Shown: piece after piece, positions 8,002-29,007 of the stretch | Numbering within the stretch: position 1 is the first letter of the stretch | Layout: each line of letters opens with the position of its first letter | IMG/VR virus record: IMGVR_UViG_3300025770_000655 | Location: 1 to 29,066 of that record | DNA from: a virus | Length of the DNA stretch: 29,066 nt | Reading direction: 5' to 3' (one strand) | Notes under the pieces: model-generated | What the model saw: only the letters and a program-made list of their open reading frames with translations | The model's database searches: none | Told to the model about the DNA's origin: nothing | Position numbers and translations under genes: made by a program

Positions 8002-8871
8002 TCACATAAAGTCACTTAATGAGGAATCAGTTGTAGATTCCAATGGTTTATAAACTTTTTTCCAGTACTTGGTATTTTTCAATTTCCCATCCTTCTCAAA
8101 AATCTTCATTCCGTGAGGGAATTTGTTTTGAATAAATTTCATTGCTTTATAATGTTCGTCACTCTGGTAGTAATTTTTAATCTTCTCAGAAGAATCTCCA
8201 TCGAACATACCTGTCCATACTACCCGTGTGTCTTGGAGGTCTTTATCAGTCATTGATTTGTTGTCGTATATCCATTCGGTTGACTGTCTGGTGTTGATAC
8301 CTCGACTTAGGCACTCGTAAAGAAAAAGAACATCTTCTGCAATACGTAATGAGGTAATATCTATATCATCAATCACCTTCGATATCATTCTTCCATCATA
8401 GAACACGATAGAATATATGCCCTTTGTATCTACATATTCTGTAGCCGCTGGTGGTGCCCAACAATCAGAGCATCCTGCAATACCAATATCTGGTTCATCG
8501 AACCAGTTACTGAACGTATCAAACATATCTAGAATTTCGTCTTTAGTAGCAGTTTGCTTGGACTTCTCCATATTAGACTTTCCAGTCCAATACTTAGCGT
8601 TCCTTCGTCTGATAATAAGGTCATCATCTGCAACACAATATTTGATTTTGCCAGCGTGTTTATGGATAAACAAACGGGTCTCTGCTAATTGAGTCCAAGT
8701 ACCAACAATCTTCTCTGGGATTTCGAGATACTCGCAATCATAATTATAGAGGTGTCGTTCCGCAGGTTCGACAACCATAACAACTCTTTCCTTTAATTCA
8801 TCGGGAAGATTGTTAAATGTAATTTGGTTATCGGTCCTGCGAACTGTTGGAATGTAGATTCGCTCAATCAT
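8002..8871 (-). CDS. Second GT-A-like glycosyltransferase
   Basis: A 289-residue protein with a GT-A layout: an opening strand IYIPTVRR, a substrate-loop region, the metal-binding DDD (82-84 in YCVADDDLIIRRR) and a downstream acidic motif RIAEDVLFLYECL (176-188) like the catalytic region of the TAGT/GREB1-like and other inverting transferases. Sequence outside the motifs differs from the transferase at 6469-7410, so it is not a recent duplicate. It overlaps the preceding gene by eight bases. Donor and acceptor are unknown: DNA bases, LPS or virion proteins are all possible. Confidence 0.6.
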   Translation of the reverse strand: MIERIYIPTVRRTDNQITFNNLPDELKERVVMVVEPAERHLYNYDCEYLEIPEKIVGTWTQLAETRLFIHKHAGKIKYCVADDDLIIRRRNAKYWTGKSNMEKSKQTATKDEILDMFDTFSNWFDEPDIGIAGCSDCWAPPAATEYVDTKGIYSIVFYDGRMISKVIDDIDITSLRIAEDVLFLYECLSRGINTRQSTEWIYDNKSMTDKDLQDTRVVWTGMFDGDSSEKIKNYYQSDEHYKAMKFIQNKFPHGMKIFEKDGKLKNTKYWKKVYKPLESTTDSSLSDFM

Positions 8872-9349
8872 TATTCTCGTCCTCCATCCAACGGAGTAAT
8901 GAATTAGCGGTTACATCAAGGTGGGGATACCAAGCAGACTTGGTTTTTACAGTCATTCGCTGACCAAGTTTGACTTGAAATTCTTCGTAGTCTTCCTTCG
9001 TTCTGAAGGACATAATAATTTGCTTGAAAGCCTTATTCTCTTCTTGAGTAAAAGAGGGCATTTGTTTCCAATGGGCACGCCAAGAATCAATATCAACTTC
9101 TGTATTGATTTTCTCACCACCCATAAAGCCATCAAGGGTAGTTGGTAGCGAGGAATCATCGACTTCGCCCAAATAGTTATCGTAACCTGCTGACTCTTCT
9201 ACTTCGACTTTTCGCTTTTTATCCTCTGCCATAATTTTATCATCCTTCTCATTAATATTATCAATCATACATCTTCCACAATTTGTGCCAATTAGATGGT
9301 ATCGTTCTTTGTCACCTTCTTTGACCGCGTTGCATATACAGATATACAT
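8864..9349 (-). CDS. Bfd-like [2Fe-2S] site fused to a phage domain
   Basis: A 161-residue protein with two parts. The N-terminus (MYICICNAVKEGD, then GTNCGRCM) has the C-x-C...C-x-x-C arrangement of bacterioferritin-associated ferredoxin (C4, C6, C24, C27), but the segment between the pairs is 17 residues rather than about 31. An acidic linker follows. From about residue 85, a domain with WKQMPSF, FRTKEDYEEFQVKLGQ and KTKSAWYP resembles a conserved phage domain of unknown role. No stop separates the parts, though an internal ATG (IMAEDKK) could produce the second alone. The promoter at 9370-9398 makes this the first gene of the glycosyltransferase operon. Confidence 0.65.
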   Translation of the reverse strand: MYICICNAVKEGDKERYHLIGTNCGRCMIDNINEKDDKIMAEDKKRKVEVEESAGYDNYLGEVDDSSLPTTLDGFMGGEKINTEVDIDSWRAHWKQMPSFTQEENKAFKQIIMSFRTKEDYEEFQVKLGQRMTVKTKSAWYPHLDVTANSLLRWMEDENND

Positions 9350-17074: not shown

Positions 17075-18412
17075 CTAGATATTATCTGCTTCTGATTTAT
17101 CTAATCTTAGTTCTTGAAAGATAGGCAAAAACAATGAGAACGTATCGCTATTCTTGTCCTTAATCTTTTCATTATACTTCACTGAAATTATCTTCCCAAT
17201 AAATTCATCAGGAGATTTCTTTCGGTCTTCATCAGTAAGACCCGAACCAACATTAACTTTAAGTTTTCCATCTTTTGTTGTGCAACTTAGGGAGCCTACT
17301 AAACCTTCAATTCTTCCAGAACCCTCAATAACATCCTCGACTAGAAGGTCTGCTTCAAGTTCTGCTTTCATCTTCACTTGATATTTAGAACGCTTATTTT
17401 CCCAGATGGAATCACCGTTCTTCACAATCACGCCTTCTTCCCCTGCTTCTAGGGCGGCATTGAAAAGTTCTTCTGCTTCTTGATAATCAGCAACCATTTC
17501 TGCTGGAAGAATTTTTACCAAATCAGGAGTTTCTTGAACATTATAAACATCTTCCATCCTGTCATTCAAAACATCAAGCCTATCGAAATATGGTATCTTA
17601 CAAAGCCCGTCTTTGAAATCTGCAAGAGGAATCATATCCCAACACCACAATCTAACTCGTGATGCTTCTTCTTTTGATATGGTGCCTTTCACTGCTTTAT
17701 TTAGAATTCCATTACCAGTCTTTCTATCTAAAATTCCACCATCCTCGGCAAGAACAACTAACTCACCATCTAAGACGGCTCCACGGAAATGTGTTATGTC
17801 ATCAAGAACGGCAGACTTATAAAATATCGACCTAATATACTCATCGAAATGTCCTTTGAGGTCAATCTCTCGCCCGCTTCTTGAACGAACTTCGACTTTA
17901 CCTTCACCATCAATAAGGATATTTGCTCTCATACCATCCATTTTTGTCTGAACTAATGCGGGATATTTAATCGCTTGAAATGACTTCTGATTGAATGCAC
18001 TGGCTAACATACACGGGTAGGTCTGAATGAAGTCTTTACCAAAGACTTTATTGACGGTCGCTATCGACACACCACACTTCAGGTCCTTCGTTACCACACG
18101 TTTTAAGACTTCTGCATCTTCTTCGTTCAGTCTGCCCAAAGTGTTCTTTAATCGACCGATAGCGGCGTTACCAGTCTCTTCTCGTGACGTTAAAACTTTG
18201 AGGGAACCCAATGCCCAATCTAGTGACATTGTACCTTCTTTGCGGTCATATTCTGGGATTTTTCGTTGATAATACTGCGTGTACGGGTCCAGGGCGGCCG
18301 TTAGAACACGCTTTAGAGTTTCATTATCCTTGTTCTCCTCAAGGGTCGCTTCTTTAAACAATCTTGAATTGTTACCTTCAAGCGTTTGTAGTATTTTGCT
18401 CACTTCTGTCAT
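17075..18412 (-). CDS. 30: ATP-dependent DNA ligase (T4 gp30-like)
   Basis: A 445-residue ligase. Nucleotidyltransferase motifs appear in order: I, TKMDGMR (156-162, adenylated lysine K157); Ia, VRSRSGREID (175-184); III, VLDGELVV (213-220); IV, EEGVIVKN (325-332); V, YQVKMK (344-349). An N-terminal helical domain (1-140) and a C-terminal OB domain (350-445, LVGSLSCTTKDGKLKVNVGSG) complete it. It seals nicks in phage replication. Its 5' end overlaps the glutaredoxin gene by 35 bases, and a promoter lies within that gene at 18447-18475. It heads the long operon that ends with the porin. Confidence 0.94.
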   Translation of the reverse strand: MTEVSKILQTLEGNNSRLFKEATLEENKDNETLKRVLTAALDPYTQYYQRKIPEYDRKEGTMSLDWALGSLKVLTSREETGNAAIGRLKNTLGRLNEEDAEVLKRVVTKDLKCGVSIATVNKVFGKDFIQTYPCMLASAFNQKSFQAIKYPALVQTKMDGMRANILIDGEGKVEVRSRSGREIDLKGHFDEYIRSIFYKSAVLDDITHFRGAVLDGELVVLAEDGGILDRKTGNGILNKAVKGTISKEEASRVRLWCWDMIPLADFKDGLCKIPYFDRLDVLNDRMEDVYNVQETPDLVKILPAEMVADYQEAEELFNAALEAGEEGVIVKNGDSIWENKRSKYQVKMKAELEADLLVEDVIEGSGRIEGLVGSLSCTTKDGKLKVNVGSGLTDEDRKKSPDEFIGKIISVKYNEKIKDKNSDTFSLFLPIFQELRLDKSEADNI

Positions 18413-18647
18413 AATTTTCTTTCTCCGCTAAATATTCAGTAAGTTCATTATAACCCCCTATGAGGGTTTTGTCAACCACTATTTGTGGTACTGACCTTAC
18501 TTCTTTGCCTAGTTTCTTAAAAAGTTCATCCTTAGAAATATCAATACCGACAATCTCTTCCGTATATGCTATTTCCTTTACCTGTAAAAGTGATTTTGCT
18601 TTGTCACAAAATACACAATTATCTCGACTATAAACCACTACTTCCAT
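18378..18647 (-). CDS. Glutaredoxin
   Basis: An 89-residue glutaredoxin. It has the thioredoxin-fold start EVVVYSRDNCVFC with redox CVFC (Cys12, Cys15), the cis-Pro motif SVPQIVVDKTLIGG and a final helix. It probably reduces phage NrdA, as T4 NrdC does. AGGAG is seven bases before ATG 18647; the longer frame upstream is the shadow of the membrane gene. A promoter is built into codons of VDKTLIGGYNEL. The gene overlaps the ligase by 35 bases. Confidence 0.9.
   Translation of the reverse strand: MEVVVYSRDNCVFCDKAKSLLQVKEIAYTEEIVGIDISKDELFKKLGKEVRSVPQIVVDKTLIGGYNELTEYLAEKENYDRSEQNTTNA
18447..18475 (-). promoter_or_regulatory. Sigma-70 promoter inside the glutaredoxin gene, for the ligase operon
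   Basis: Minus-strand TTGACA (18475-18470), 17-base spacer, TATAAT (18452-18447). The promoter is embedded in codons for VDKTLIGGYN, and its spacer holds an imperfect inverted repeat (ACCCTCATAGGGGGT) that could be an operator. Confidence 0.82.
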
Positions 18648-18655
18648 AATTTCTC

Positions 18656-18847
18656 CTAAAAGAATAAAAAGGCCAAAGCACCTGCACCTAATACCCAAGG
18701 CCAATACTTCCAACCCAATTTCATTGATGCGACAATCACAACTACAACAAGGGCAATCGTGAATCCTAAACCCAACATCTGGACAAATATGTCCCATTTA
18801 TCAAATAAGAACTCAAACGTACCTTCATCTGTAATTGTAACTTCCAT
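18656..18847 (-). CDS. Small two-TM membrane protein
   Basis: A 63-residue protein: an acidic N-terminus (MEVTITDEGTFEFLFDKWD), then two close transmembrane helices (about 22-42 and 46-63) with the chain ending at FLFF. AAGGAG is five bases before the ATG. Its stop TAG is part of the glutaredoxin SD. It could be a second holin-like or antiholin protein, but it lies far from the lysozyme. Confidence 0.7.
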   Translation of the reverse strand: MEVTITDEGTFEFLFDKWDIFVQMLGLGFTIALVVVVIVASMKLGWKYWPWVLGAGALAFLFF

Positions 18848-24043: not shown

Positions 24044-24373
24044 CTAATTCATAGAAAAAGATTCTCCACAACCACAACTAGATGTTGCGTTCGGATTAGT
24101 AAATTTAAATCCCTTTCCGTTAAGTCCATCTTCAAAATCCAATGATATTCCTTTCAGATATATCATACTCTTGTTATCGATAATTACCTTATATCCATCG
24201 TTTTCAAATTCCTTGTCATTTTCTGCTACGACTGAATCCCATTCAATTTCATATGTCATTCCAGAACATCCACCACCTGCAACGGCTAGTCGTAATCCAA
24301 CATCACTCGGTAAACCATTTAATAAAGACTTCACTTGCGTACTTGCTTTTTCAGTTATTGTCACAAAATCCAT
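24044..24373 (-). CDS. A-type Fe-S carrier (IscA/SufA/HesB family), copy 1
   Basis: A 109-residue A-type carrier. The three cluster-binding cysteines are present: C36 (GGGCSGMTYEI) and C100/C102 (SSCGCGESFSM). Length and layout (TITEKASTQVKSLL start, LDFEDGLNGKGFKFTNPNA before the CGC) are standard. These proteins hand Fe-S clusters to targets. It lies 15 bases after the second carrier gene, and the pair are distinct in sequence. Confidence 0.93.
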   Translation of the reverse strand: MDFVTITEKASTQVKSLLNGLPSDVGLRLAVAGGGCSGMTYEIEWDSVVAENDKEFENDGYKVIIDNKSMIYLKGISLDFEDGLNGKGFKFTNPNATSSCGCGESFSMN

Positions 24374-24388
24374 TTCTTACCTTTCTAT

Positions 24389-24730
24389 TTACACTCCTGC
24401 TTTAAGTGTGAATGACTCCCCACAGCCACAGGTCGCATCTTCGTACGGGTTATTAAATTTGAAACCAGCATCATATCCATTAGGATTTACTTCATAATCT
24501 ATTTCTGTACCTAGCATCATCATTAGTGATTTATGGTTGACTAGAATTTTAACTCCATTTGAATCAAATTCATTATCATCTTCCTCGATTTGGTCAGCGT
24601 ATTCTAAATTATACGCATAACCAGAACATCCAGTAGTTCTGATATTAACTCTAATACCTAGTCCTGAACCTCTTTCTTCTAAGAAGTGCTTGACTCGTTC
24701 CGCTCCAGCGTCTGTTACGGTGATGCTCAT
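24389..24730 (-). CDS. A-type Fe-S carrier (IscA/SufA/HesB family), copy 2
   Basis: A 113-residue A-type carrier with C35 (TTGCSGYAYNLEY) and C101/C103 (ATCGCGESFTL). Its opening MSITVTDAGAERVKHFLEER and the longer tail separate it from copy 1, so the two are divergent paralogues and may form a heterodimer like the ErpA/IscA pairs. AAGGA lies ten bases ahead of the ATG. It is transcribed before copy 1. Confidence 0.93.
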   Translation of the reverse strand: MSITVTDAGAERVKHFLEERGSGLGIRVNIRTTGCSGYAYNLEYADQIEEDDNEFDSNGVKILVNHKSLMMMLGTEIDYEVNPNGYDAGFKFNNPYEDATCGCGESFTLKAGV

Positions 24731-24758
24731 TATACTTGCTTCCTTTTCCTATTGTTGT

Positions 24759-27635
24759 CTAAGTTCTGAACCAACTCCAAACGAGTCCGCTTGGGTGGCC
24801 TTCTACGTTGCTCTGCCCATCACTCGTATGAAAGGGTTGGTCTCGATGGAACCATTGAGTTCCATTGCTTGTTTCTGATATTGTCGGTGTTGACCAATAC
24901 AAATGACAGGTATGTCCGCCATAGTGATTCCCATTATATAAGATGATTGGATATATTTCACCTTCTACCAGACTTATTGTTCCTGTGTTTGATACGTCTG
25001 GATGACTACCGGGTGCGGCCGCTAACCAATTGCTGGTGGAAATACTCGCTTCTACCTGCGCCAAACTCTGACTCGGTGTTCCTATCCATAAATAGATGGA
25101 GTCATCTCCTACTACTCTGAATGAATACGTTTCAGTTGATTGTGCTTTAAACCATCCCTTTACTCTGAATGAACGCTTACTCGTATTATCATCAATTATA
25201 ATGGCTTTTGCATCCCAACTTTGGTCCATTGCGTTTGAAATCCAAGTATTGCCGGCATTCTGATATGTGTAATTTCCCCAAGAAGATGATGAGCAACATC
25301 TCCAAGTGGCCCCCAATAATTCACACCCCGATTGGCCAAGCCAATCAGCGGCACCATCACACCAACACTGACCATCGCTGTAGTTTCCTCCGTCACATTG
25401 TCCATTATTCCAACTACCACTACCTGTGGATGTACATCCGCTAGGATTATTATTGTATCCGCTGTTCCCGTTTCCGTATTGTCCGCCACCGTTACACCAA
25501 CCTTCATTGATACAAGAAGTGTAATTGGTCCATTGATTATCGGAGCAGTAAGAGTATCCTACAGCGGTCAAAGTTGAAAAACTATTATTGCTATTATAAG
25601 CAGGGTCCCATTTATTTGGACTAATTCTCCATCGCTGAACATCTATTCCGTGTATCCATTCCCAATTATCCCAGACTGGAGTTACTTTATAATATACGTG
25701 ATGGAATGGTCTAATTCCCACTTTCCATAATTCTTCTCGACTATCTTGAAAATACATAGCACCAGTATCTGTAGTATGAGGAACTTCACCTACTAATTTC
25801 CATACGCCAAGGGCATAATCAGAACCTGTATTTTGCGTGCCATCCTTCCAATACGGTGCTCGATAAATTCTATATCTATTTGGTGTTCCTAAATGTCTGC
25901 TAGATGATGATAAATTTACATTATACTGTGGCGAATACCAACGTATTTGTGGAAAAGTATTTGTTGTAGCATCATTATATCCATATAATCCAAGTGGTAC
26001 GCTACTTGTATTTGTAAATCCGTGAGGAGGGAATCCGTTTGTTCCGTAATACCAAGATTCAATCGGCATATCAATATCATACGTTCCCCAAACTGTCGCT
26101 GTGTTAGGCGTATTAATTGTGTTCCAAGTATATCCATTGCTTTCACAAATGGCTTGAGTAGAATTTGCAACACCATCCCAAGTGGCAGGAACGGCCAAAC
26201 AGGCTGACTGATTTATAGTTACTCCATCGGAACAGGTGTAATGCGTTGCAGTTGAACATTCATAAGTTGTTACAATCCAGTTATTCTGAGTTGGAACAGG
26301 GTCTTGAAAACGCATTGAATGTGTCACCCACCAAGGATGAGTTGATTGACCAACTTCTGTGCCATTACCATAACTTGAATTCATATCACCATATTGAATT
26401 GTTATACTTGTACTTGTTGTTTCTGCGTGACTTTCAGGCCATTTACTAGGATTATCTGAAGTCATCAAATTATAATTTTGATGTGCAGATATCGTTTCTG
26501 CCGATTGATACCACTGATTGCTTATTTGCGTTGCGATATTATCATCTGCGAACCAAGCCCAGTATAAGTGATTCCAGCCTGAGACTGTCTGGGTTGTTTC
26601 CATACACCATTCTTTAGTAGCATTTGAGTTATACCAAACCCAGTTAGCAGTTGCATCATTGTTGGATGAATATGCACATTTTCCACCATTATTTGCGTTT
26701 GAGAGACCACCTTGTTCGCACATAGCCATTGAATTCGACCCTGGATGGAAATTGACTTCAAGAAATTCTGGTCCGCCAGCGTCACGTTGATTTTTATTAA
26801 CACATACCATTGGTGCAGAGGGTTTAGAACCTGCGACAGTCCAAACAGAAGGGTAAGTCCAAACAGAAGGGTTAGTCCAAATATTACCAGACGCAACACA
26901 GGCCGCTTCAGTAATCCAAACAGGGTCATCACAACCAGTTGCTAGACAATCTGTGGGATTTGTAAATTGGGGGTCAGAACATCCTGTATAAGTACAAGTT
27001 GCTTGCGTTGTAAGTAGAGGGTCTGAGCAACTATCTGGCCAACTCTCTTGTGTTCTACAATATGAACTTTGATAAGAGGATTCGCAAGATGTTTGATTGG
27101 TGTATGTTGGGTCAGTACAATGATAATCAGTAATGGCATCCCAAACTACCTCAATATAAGGAATACCATCAGTATCTGGGTCTGTGGTACTATTTGTACC
27201 ATTGTATGTCATCAGTCCAAGAGGATTACGTACCCTTTTGCTTACCTCATCGCCATATAGGGTTTGTCCAAGAACTTGATAATCACTAAATTCAACTTCG
27301 TATTTCTTACTAACAAGAGAGGAATATACTTCAAATTCAGAATATATATCAAAATAAGTGCCATCAAAGGTATTGTCGGATGTAATAACATTAACTAATG
27401 TGCCATCTCCAGAGAAGAATGAGCGAACAATAGCCAATACGTCATCTCTATCGGCCATTGACAATGCTCCACCCATAGCGGCAACTTCCATTGCTCGTTT
27501 TGTTGCTTCTTGGGCACCAACTGAAGTCAAGACAATGTCCGTTAATCGGATATTACCGTCTTGAGTCAACATCCCGAACTGAGCCACTTGGCCGTTCGGG
27601 ATGCTTACTGGTTTATATTTTAGAATATCACTCAT
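24759..27635 (-). CDS. Giant Cys-rich repeat adhesin/tail-fibre-like protein with PA14/GLEYA domain
   Basis: A 958-residue virion-type protein. The N-terminal ~150 residues (VAQFGMLTQDGNIRLTDIVL opening) may attach to a baseplate or fibre. About 170-260 holds short Cys repeats (CTDPTYTNQTSC, CSDPLLTTQATC, CSDPQFTNPTDC, CDDPVWITEAAC); similar units recur near 470-510 and 690-790. Long Trp/Asn/Tyr/Ser-rich stretches lie between. About 815-930 resembles a PA14/GLEYA lectin fold (FRVKGWFKAQSTETYSFRVV, then DDSIYLWIG), suggesting host-glycan binding. The ATG has no ribosome site; a CATAAATA late-like box lies five bases upstream. Precise virion position is unknown. Confidence 0.72.
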   Translation of the reverse strand: MSDILKYKPVSIPNGQVAQFGMLTQDGNIRLTDIVLTSVGAQEATKRAMEVAAMGGALSMADRDDVLAIVRSFFSGDGTLVNVITSDNTFDGTYFDIYSEFEVYSSLVSKKYEVEFSDYQVLGQTLYGDEVSKRVRNPLGLMTYNGTNSTTDPDTDGIPYIEVVWDAITDYHCTDPTYTNQTSCESSYQSSYCRTQESWPDSCSDPLLTTQATCTYTGCSDPQFTNPTDCLATGCDDPVWITEAACVASGNIWTNPSVWTYPSVWTVAGSKPSAPMVCVNKNQRDAGGPEFLEVNFHPGSNSMAMCEQGGLSNANNGGKCAYSSNNDATANWVWYNSNATKEWCMETTQTVSGWNHLYWAWFADDNIATQISNQWYQSAETISAHQNYNLMTSDNPSKWPESHAETTSTSITIQYGDMNSSYGNGTEVGQSTHPWWVTHSMRFQDPVPTQNNWIVTTYECSTATHYTCSDGVTINQSACLAVPATWDGVANSTQAICESNGYTWNTINTPNTATVWGTYDIDMPIESWYYGTNGFPPHGFTNTSSVPLGLYGYNDATTNTFPQIRWYSPQYNVNLSSSSRHLGTPNRYRIYRAPYWKDGTQNTGSDYALGVWKLVGEVPHTTDTGAMYFQDSREELWKVGIRPFHHVYYKVTPVWDNWEWIHGIDVQRWRISPNKWDPAYNSNNSFSTLTAVGYSYCSDNQWTNYTSCINEGWCNGGGQYGNGNSGYNNNPSGCTSTGSGSWNNGQCDGGNYSDGQCWCDGAADWLGQSGCELLGATWRCCSSSSWGNYTYQNAGNTWISNAMDQSWDAKAIIIDDNTSKRSFRVKGWFKAQSTETYSFRVVGDDSIYLWIGTPSQSLAQVEASISTSNWLAAAPGSHPDVSNTGTISLVEGEIYPIILYNGNHYGGHTCHLYWSTPTISETSNGTQWFHRDQPFHTSDGQSNVEGHPSGLVWSWFRT
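26838..26873 (-). repeat. 18-bp tandem duplication in the adhesin gene
   Basis: Two copies of an 18-bp unit (plus strand AGTCCAAACAGAAGGGTW, 26838-26855 and 26856-26873) differ at one base and encode the repeated PSVWT in NPSVWTYPSVWTVAG. A third, partial copy follows. This is a young in-frame expansion. Confidence 0.75.
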
Positions 27636-28372: not shown

Positions 28373-28792
28373 TTAACTGCATAGATTGTACCATTTATGG
28401 GTTCCAATATTTGTTACGTTTTTGTATCCGCTTTTCTCTAAGTCTACTTTGGCTGTATTTGCCAAGTTACCGTGATTTGAATAGACCAAGATTGGAGTAT
28501 TTTCTGTTACTCTGTCGTTTGCATCACACCATCTAAGAAGATTGGAGTGTGGCACATTAACTGCATTGTGGAGTTTTCCACCTGAAATGAAATCTACTGG
28601 ATTTCGTACATCAATAATAACTCCTCCAGCAAGAAAAATTTCTCTAATTTCTTCGCAAGTCATCCGGGTGCCTGTGCCACCAAATACTTCTTCGTATGCG
28701 AGGTTTTCTTCTCGGCGCTTTTTGTTATCCCGTACAGTCTGCTTGTAATACGCTTGCATTACTTTATCCCACGGCTTTGCTACTTTATCCAT
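28373..28792 (-). CDS. Rhodanese-fold protein without the catalytic cysteine
   Basis: A 139-residue protein with a basic helical N-terminus (1-35) and a rhodanese domain (about 45-139): VIIDVRNPVDFISGGKL, HNAVNVPHSNL, and ILVYSNHGNLANTAKVDL, then GYKNVTNIG. In active rhodaneses the loop after ILVY begins with the persulfide-carrying Cys; here it is S105, so sulfur transfer is unlikely. Start ATG 28792 lies eight bases after GGAGG, in an almost ideal SD (GGAGGTGA) made from the last codons of the upstream gene. Confidence 0.8.
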   Translation of the reverse strand: MDKVAKPWDKVMQAYYKQTVRDNKKRREENLAYEEVFGGTGTRMTCEEIREIFLAGGVIIDVRNPVDFISGGKLHNAVNVPHSNLLRWCDANDRVTENTPILVYSNHGNLANTAKVDLEKSGYKNVTNIGTHKWYNLCS

Positions 28793-28797
28793 TGTAA

Positions 28798-29007
28798 TCA
28801 CCTCCAACTATGTCCGATTAAATCTCCAGCACCACGGTCCTCGTCTGAGATTGCCGTTTTGCTGTGGCTAACTTTCATTATTTTATTCCATTTTTCAGAC
28901 CCACATTCGCAGAATCCTACTTGGTCTTCCATTCCTTTCTCAGACCATTTCATCATTCGGTCTACTTCTAGACCACACTTATCACATTCAAAACTAAATA
29001 TCGGCAT
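28798..29007 (-). CDS. FmdB-type zinc-ribbon protein
   Basis: A 69-residue protein starting MPIFSFECDKCGLEVDRMM, a match to the FmdB/YdcC putative regulatory zinc ribbon (C8, C11, then C33, C35). The second pair is CxC rather than the usual CxxC. AAGGAG precedes the ATG. Its last codons (TGG AGG TGA) form the SD of the rhodanese gene. Confidence 0.75.
   Translation of the reverse strand: MPIFSFECDKCGLEVDRMMKWSEKGMEDQVGFCECGSEKWNKIMKVSHSKTAISDEDRGAGDLIGHSWR

Follow-up and report, generated by a model that had tools for sequence, protein, structure and literature searches.

Two A-type iron-sulfur carriers of different bacterial ancestry in a marine T4-like phage: the probable carrier end of a viral Fe-S maturation module

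Among marine viral genomes, 14 with an A-type Fe-S carrier (ATC) and six with IscU, several of them T4-like and accompanied by glutaredoxin (Grx), are reported by Nishimura et al. 2017 (PMC5332604). ATC or IscU genes of marine phages are also found in PMC9038755 and PMC10580990. In dsrA-bearing phages of sulfur oxidisers, genes for NifU, IscA, GrxD and TusA were observed near the AMG (Kieft et al. 2021, PMC8190135). Likewise, T4-like phages of nitrite-oxidising Nitrospirota from Lake Baikal encode ferredoxin, 2-oxoacid:ferredoxin oxidoreductase (OFOR) and an Fe-S biosynthesis protein (Coutinho et al. 2020, PMC7678222). In E. coli, clusters of IscU or SufBCD can be received by ATC-II proteins (IscA, SufA) and handed on to ErpA (ATC-I), the carrier that charges apoproteins (Vinella et al. 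2009, PMC2682760); ErpA can also be fed by GrxD (PMC11327457).

In this study, two neighbouring ATC genes, P1 and P2, were analysed in a fragment of 29,066 bases (IMG/VR record IMGVR_UViG_3300025770_000655), hereafter called the window. Judged by its sequence, the window derives from a marine T4-like phage. NrdA, NrdB and PurM were matched by HMM, a RuvC-like resolvase was recognised as well, and a reading of the ORF list gave what we take to be topoisomerase gp39/gp52, RNase H and ligase. The viral ATCs of Nishimura et al. resemble those of the window in protein family, phage type and accessory genes. Yet, according to the available parts of that paper, their hosts are of the SAR86 type from the photic zone, and neither a carrier pair from two lineages nor a ferredoxin in a joint operon is described there, contrary to what was observed in the window and its sister contig L003 (see below). 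The dsrA phages share the parts list (scaffold and carrier, without desulfurase) and their IscA clade includes P2, but their second carrier is of the ErpA type and their client is DsrA, whereas the window has a Nitrospinota-type carrier and L003 a Nitrospinota-type ferredoxin. The Baikal phages have in common with the window the idea of a nitrite-oxidiser phage equipped with an Fe-S carrier and likely clients. They differ in being two genome fragments with a freshwater Nitrospirota host and without an IscU/IscA pair, the window being marine and Nitrospinota-like. Single ATC and IscU genes of phages are thus already published, while the carrier pair of two origins and the mixed module appear to be new: no report of such a pair, of an iscU-iscA-ferredoxin-ATC operon or of marine Nitrospinota-type phages with OFOR was found in the open-licence literature.

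As originally predicted, P1 and P2 are divergent ATCs, each with a full C...CGC triad (Table 1); they share only 37% identity, far from what a recent near-identical duplicate would display. Both scored above the cut-offs of PF01521 Fe-S_biosyn (P1: E 4e-21, 75.7 bits; P2: E 1.8e-18, 67.2 bits; cut-off 26.3) and NCBIfam TIGR00049 (118.6 and 105.8 bits, respectively; cut-off 58.8), and matched solved structures of the carrier family at E 1e-24 to 1e-30. Across the 15 relatives aligned for each protein, the triads did not vary. Shine-Dalgarno-like sequences were found for P2 (AAAAGGAAG) and P1 (AGAAAGG). Relative to L003, dN/dS (NG86) was 0.059 for P1 and 0.090 for P2, and on this measure both genes are under purifying selection. 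By family assignment, they encode intact ATCs that would be expected to bind and transfer 2Fe-2S/4Fe-4S clusters. Their names are kept cautious because neither reached an equivalog cut-off. For P2 the top-scoring subfamily was IscA (TIGR02011, 123.6 bits), yet below the equivalog cut-off of 150.6, and the protein is best described as "IscA-like by phylogeny". P1 remained below the ErpA cut-off (PRK13623, 101.4 bits against 117), and both were below that of SufA (TIGR01997, 101.1 bits for P1 and 103.8 for P2 against 136.2). Judging from these scores and the trees, P1 is an ATC of the Nitrospinota/deep-sea-phage type, neither ErpA nor SufA.

Table 1. Positions of the carrier genes and other features in the window, and of comparable gene sets in other phage contigs
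Feature	Position	Strand	Remarks
P1, A-type carrier of Nitrospinota/deep-sea-phage type, 109 aa	24044..24373	-	Cys36/Cys100/Cys102
P1-P2 gap, 15 nt	24374..24388	-	holds P1 ribosome-binding site; ferredoxin gene sits here in L003
P2, ISC-type A-type carrier (IscA-like, ATC-II), 113 aa	24389..24730	-	Cys35/Cys101/Cys103
Adhesin-P2 gap, 28 nt	24731..24758	-	iscU sits here in L003
Adhesin/tail-fibre-like gene	24759..27635	-	Cys-rich repeats, GLEYA/PA14-like domain at the C-terminus; lies upstream of the carrier pair
Glutaredoxin	18378..18797	-	PF00462 E 2e-10; phrog_22; CVFC dithiol motif
ORF with mini-Bfd-like N-terminus	8864..9349	-	MYICICNAV..GTNCGRC
Rhodanese-fold protein	28373-28807		PF00581 E 2e-10
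OFOR locus, deep-sea phage contig L275	2227-6668		
OFOR locus, deep-sea phage contig L277	2947-7108		
OFOR locus, deep-sea phage contig L281	1251-4810		
OFOR locus, deep-sea phage contig L022	1887-6858		
dsrA phage row, L307	3588-7235		with monothiol grxD
dsrA phage row, L313	3693-6874		with tusA-like gene

The most careful tree was a maximum likelihood one of 68 rows, computed on a trimmed set without IscA-Nif references. P2 fell within the ISC-type IscA clade (100/100), nested in a phage IscA subclade (100/99) whose members came mostly from dsrA-bearing contigs or their relatives. P1 was placed outside the ErpA clade (100/100); it grouped with other marine phage ATCs (97/95) and then with Nitrospinia (90/81), the next branch outward being formed by Bdellovibrionota and OFOR-carrying phages (95/87). 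When P1 and P2 were forced together on this tree, the AU test rejected the arrangement (p=0.0008), which argues against a duplication within the phage, as implied by the term "paralogues" in the original prediction. A larger, quick tree placed both proteins likewise, although on it a joint origin was not rejected by the AU test (p=0.137); the resolving power of carrier trees is limited since the proteins are short. On the careful tree, P1 and P2 are to be read as having separate bacterial origins, with the reservation that concerns the wider quick set.

Pairwise identities to P1 amounted to 97% in L003, 65-71% in 18 other viral contigs and 47-58% among Nitrospinia ATCs. P2 was 84% identical to the IscA of L003 and 67% to that of L115, a contig of the dsrA-phage type, and a wider scan revealed no P2-like contig closer than L115. 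Bacteroidota were rejected as the origin of P2, their identity to it reaching no more than 45% across 296 genomes, and so were Nitrospirota as source of P1 (best identity 54%) or of the L003 ferredoxin (best 62%, a partial match, in 100 genomes). Relatives among the isolate phages of INPHARED, where judged, turned out to be host contamination or unannotated short fragments, with the exception of two metagenomic huge-phage records. Record CAKLQH020000011.1 (L463, 'Acinetobacter phage MD-2021a') carries the host's whole isc operon; it is bacterial chromosome that contaminates the phage collection.

The only other contig carrying the P1-P2 pair was L003, which is syntenic with the window (90% nucleotide identity over 5.5 kb). 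Its locus runs from the end of the fibre gene through iscU, iscA (P2) and a 2[4Fe-4S] ferredoxin gene to the ATC gene (P1). Its IscU (126 aa, TIGR01999 219 bits) and its YfhL-type 2[4Fe-4S] ferredoxin (112 aa, NF033683 95.5 bits) were both above cut-off. L003 has iscU with the ATCs and, within the contig's reach, neither IscS nor HscAB. The window fragment has the two carriers only: tblastn found no IscU, ferredoxin or OFOR in the 29 kb, and P2 lacks the iscU that adjoins its counterpart in L003. From this comparison, a phage Fe-S module of four genes would be present at the window locus in reduced form. With two genomes to compare, loss of iscU and ferredoxin in the window lineage seems more likely than gain in L003, since the phage relatives of P2, which belong to the sulfur-phage clade of IscA, all have iscU upstream wherever their contig reaches far enough. 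The two genes missing at the locus may have been lost or may be sited outside the fragment. The same observations could be taken to mean that the pair is a decaying remnant of a former iscU-iscA-ferredoxin-ATC operon and hardly useful any more. However, neither P1 nor P2 is disrupted, their Cys triads are complete and dN/dS versus L003 stays below 0.1, and the joints are clean, the 28- and 15-nt gaps being free of debris; we consider such decay quite improbable.

Two ATCs were found in at least 26 distinct viral contigs (some near-identical), mostly as an IscA-type and an ErpA-type protein near iscU, and no IscS, IscR, HscA or HscB was found within the stretches fetched from them. Being a sample of best hits, these contigs illustrate a pattern, not a frequency. 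In the dsrA phages (L307, L313 and others), the gene order was dsrA - (tusA) - iscU - ferredoxin - ErpA-like ATC - (grxD) - iscA, with a DsrA scoring 481 bits against TIGR02064. Bacterial operons of the forms iscU-erpA-iscA-hscA and iscU-erpA-iscA-hscB-hscA were recovered as well (Paraburkholderia plasmid pBN1, Methylococcus plasmid). They likewise have two different ATCs adjoining behind iscU and are a plausible source of the phage tandem, the chaperones having been dropped by the phages. Yet they continue with hscA or hscB-hscA, which the phages lack, and P1 is not an ErpA; the second carrier slot in the window and L003 is, by its placement in the tree, of the Nitrospinota type. Another phage tandem, in L025 (5405-6339) and L026 (1185-2116), associates a complete ATC with an NfuA-like protein composed of an ATC domain without cysteines and a NifU domain. 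IscU-IscA pairs also recurred at distances of a few kb from the NrdA/NrdB and glutaredoxin genes of phages (e.g. L049, L066, L085, L136), which hints that Fe-S supply and ribonucleotide reductase may be linked.

Both OFOR and ferredoxin transfer electrons through 4Fe-4S clusters, and the enzyme DsrA combines siroheme with a 4Fe-4S cluster. Of 18 viral contigs with a P1-type ATC, at least 9 also had a ferredoxin of the 112-aa type; no OFOR or IscU was found in the longer P1-type contigs, which are themselves fragments. Among the deep-sea phage contigs with OFOR, L275 displayed an operon for OFOR alpha, beta and a second beta-like subunit (beta'), a NifU-C domain, ferredoxin and ATC. The sets of L277 and L281 resembled it, no ATC being seen at the L281 locus, and in L022 the ATC gene was placed between those of OFOR beta and alpha. 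The NifU-C protein and the ATC accompanied OFOR and ferredoxin in both L275 and L277. From their sequences, these OFOR sets are likely reductive-TCA genes in marine Nitrospinota phages. Since both are 4Fe-4S electron-transfer proteins, ferredoxin and OFOR are plausible clients of the carriers, as suggested by gene neighbourhood in the relatives. Alternatively, the carriers might mainly serve Fe-S proteins of the host (those of the respiratory chain and of nitrite oxidation, IspG/H) or the repair of clusters under oxidative stress, with no need of a viral client. ATCs are indeed general carriers with overlapping clients (PMC2682760), the window contains no clear Fe-S client, and many IMG/VR contigs carry IscU/IscA without ferredoxin. 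Carrier genes of the relatives nevertheless adjoin those of 4Fe-4S proteins (ferredoxin, OFOR, DsrA) more than once, and a role chiefly in the service of the host seems rather unlikely to us.

The adhesin gene beside the carriers, which had been singled out at first as a notable neighbour, is present (GLEYA PF10528, E 7e-9; PA14 match slightly below the Pfam cut-off), but its position looks incidental, P1-type genes elsewhere having other neighbours. Its cysteines, 28 in total, are spaced in C-x(n)-C repeats that are more like disulfide repeats, and no Fe-S motif was matched by Pfam. The repeat unit reads C-S-D-x-x-x-T-N-x-T-x-C and precedes the GLEYA/PA14-like domain. A reading in which the carriers load clusters into a virion protein, for an iron use of the Ferrojan-horse kind, is favoured by their position next to this Cys-rich gene. 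The spacing of its cysteines is, however, typical of disulfides, other genes flank the relatives of P1, and the relatives tie the carriers to cytoplasmic Fe-S proteins, all of which makes a virion client highly improbable. Support for a virion protein bearing an iron or Fe-S motif was not found, the adhesin being the virion gene checked and others lying outside the fragment.

As for the broader Fe-S/sulfur set that had been proposed around the pair, the two carriers most probably belong to a phage Fe-S set, L003 adding IscU and ferredoxin, while the sulfur branch was not supported. The glutaredoxin domain was recovered; the true start of this gene is probably an internal Met, which would give 89 aa as in the L003 orthologue. 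The rhodanese fold was recovered too, but a sulfur-transfer role is unlikely because the active-site loop, which reads LVYSNHGN in the sequence, has Ser where the catalytic Cys would be expected. The Bfd-like segment proved to be the truncated CxC...CxxC N-terminus of a longer ORF with no match in Pfam or NCBIfam. An independent 35-aa Bfd-like homologue (CxC...CxxC) occurred directly 3' of iscU in viral contig L091 (6378-6485).

Along all its 112 aa, the L003 ferredoxin matched proteins from 23 of 40 Nitrospinia genomes at 74-79% identity, versus less than 60% for plasmid-collection bacteria. OFOR alpha of L275 displayed 82% and 75% identity to two Nitrospinaceae genomes. Because of the affinities of ferredoxin and ATC and of the OFOR of related phages, our best guess is that the host of L003 and, by synteny, of the window probably belongs to the marine nitrite oxidisers of Nitrospinota. 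To a host of this kind, IscU and IscA would seem foreign since the NifU_N matches in ferredoxin-bearing Nitrospinia were weak and SufU-like (E ~1e-22 to 1e-27, compared with 8e-55 for the gene of L003). These two proteins are of proteobacterial type, and the host may also be a proteobacterium.

Taken with their relatives, P1 and P2 rather likely form the carrier end of a phage Fe-S maturation module, in a host that is probably a member of Nitrospinota. The two genes would be transcribed together. By analogy with the E. coli system, P2 would take clusters from an IscU-type scaffold and P1 would hand them to viral 4Fe-4S clients, i.e. the phage ferredoxin and, in related phages, OFOR. Host cysteine desulfurase and iron would supply the module. 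In the window, the carriers would have to draw on host or off-fragment scaffolds because iscU and ferredoxin are missing at the locus. By such a relay, enzymes of electron transfer and of carbon and energy metabolism would stay supplied with clusters at times when these are short because of lytic infection and low iron. Going further, and tentatively, the phage might import a proteobacterial-type IscU and IscA into a host that seemingly relies on SUF and couple them to a host-type carrier and ferredoxin, as a private Fe-S line favouring viral proteins in deep-sea nitrite oxidisers; we see this as possible, though not as the likelier case.

Iron is scarce in the sea, where Fe-S enzymes carry dark carbon fixation as well as nitrite and sulfur oxidation. 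Phages repeatedly have scaffold and carriers and leave the desulfurase to the host, which suggests that cluster delivery, not sulfur supply, is what limits them. The pair of two origins suggests that such modules are assembled across bacterial lineages, and P1 and P2 provide concrete genes for testing if the Fe-S traffic of nitrite and sulfur oxidisers is redirected by viruses.
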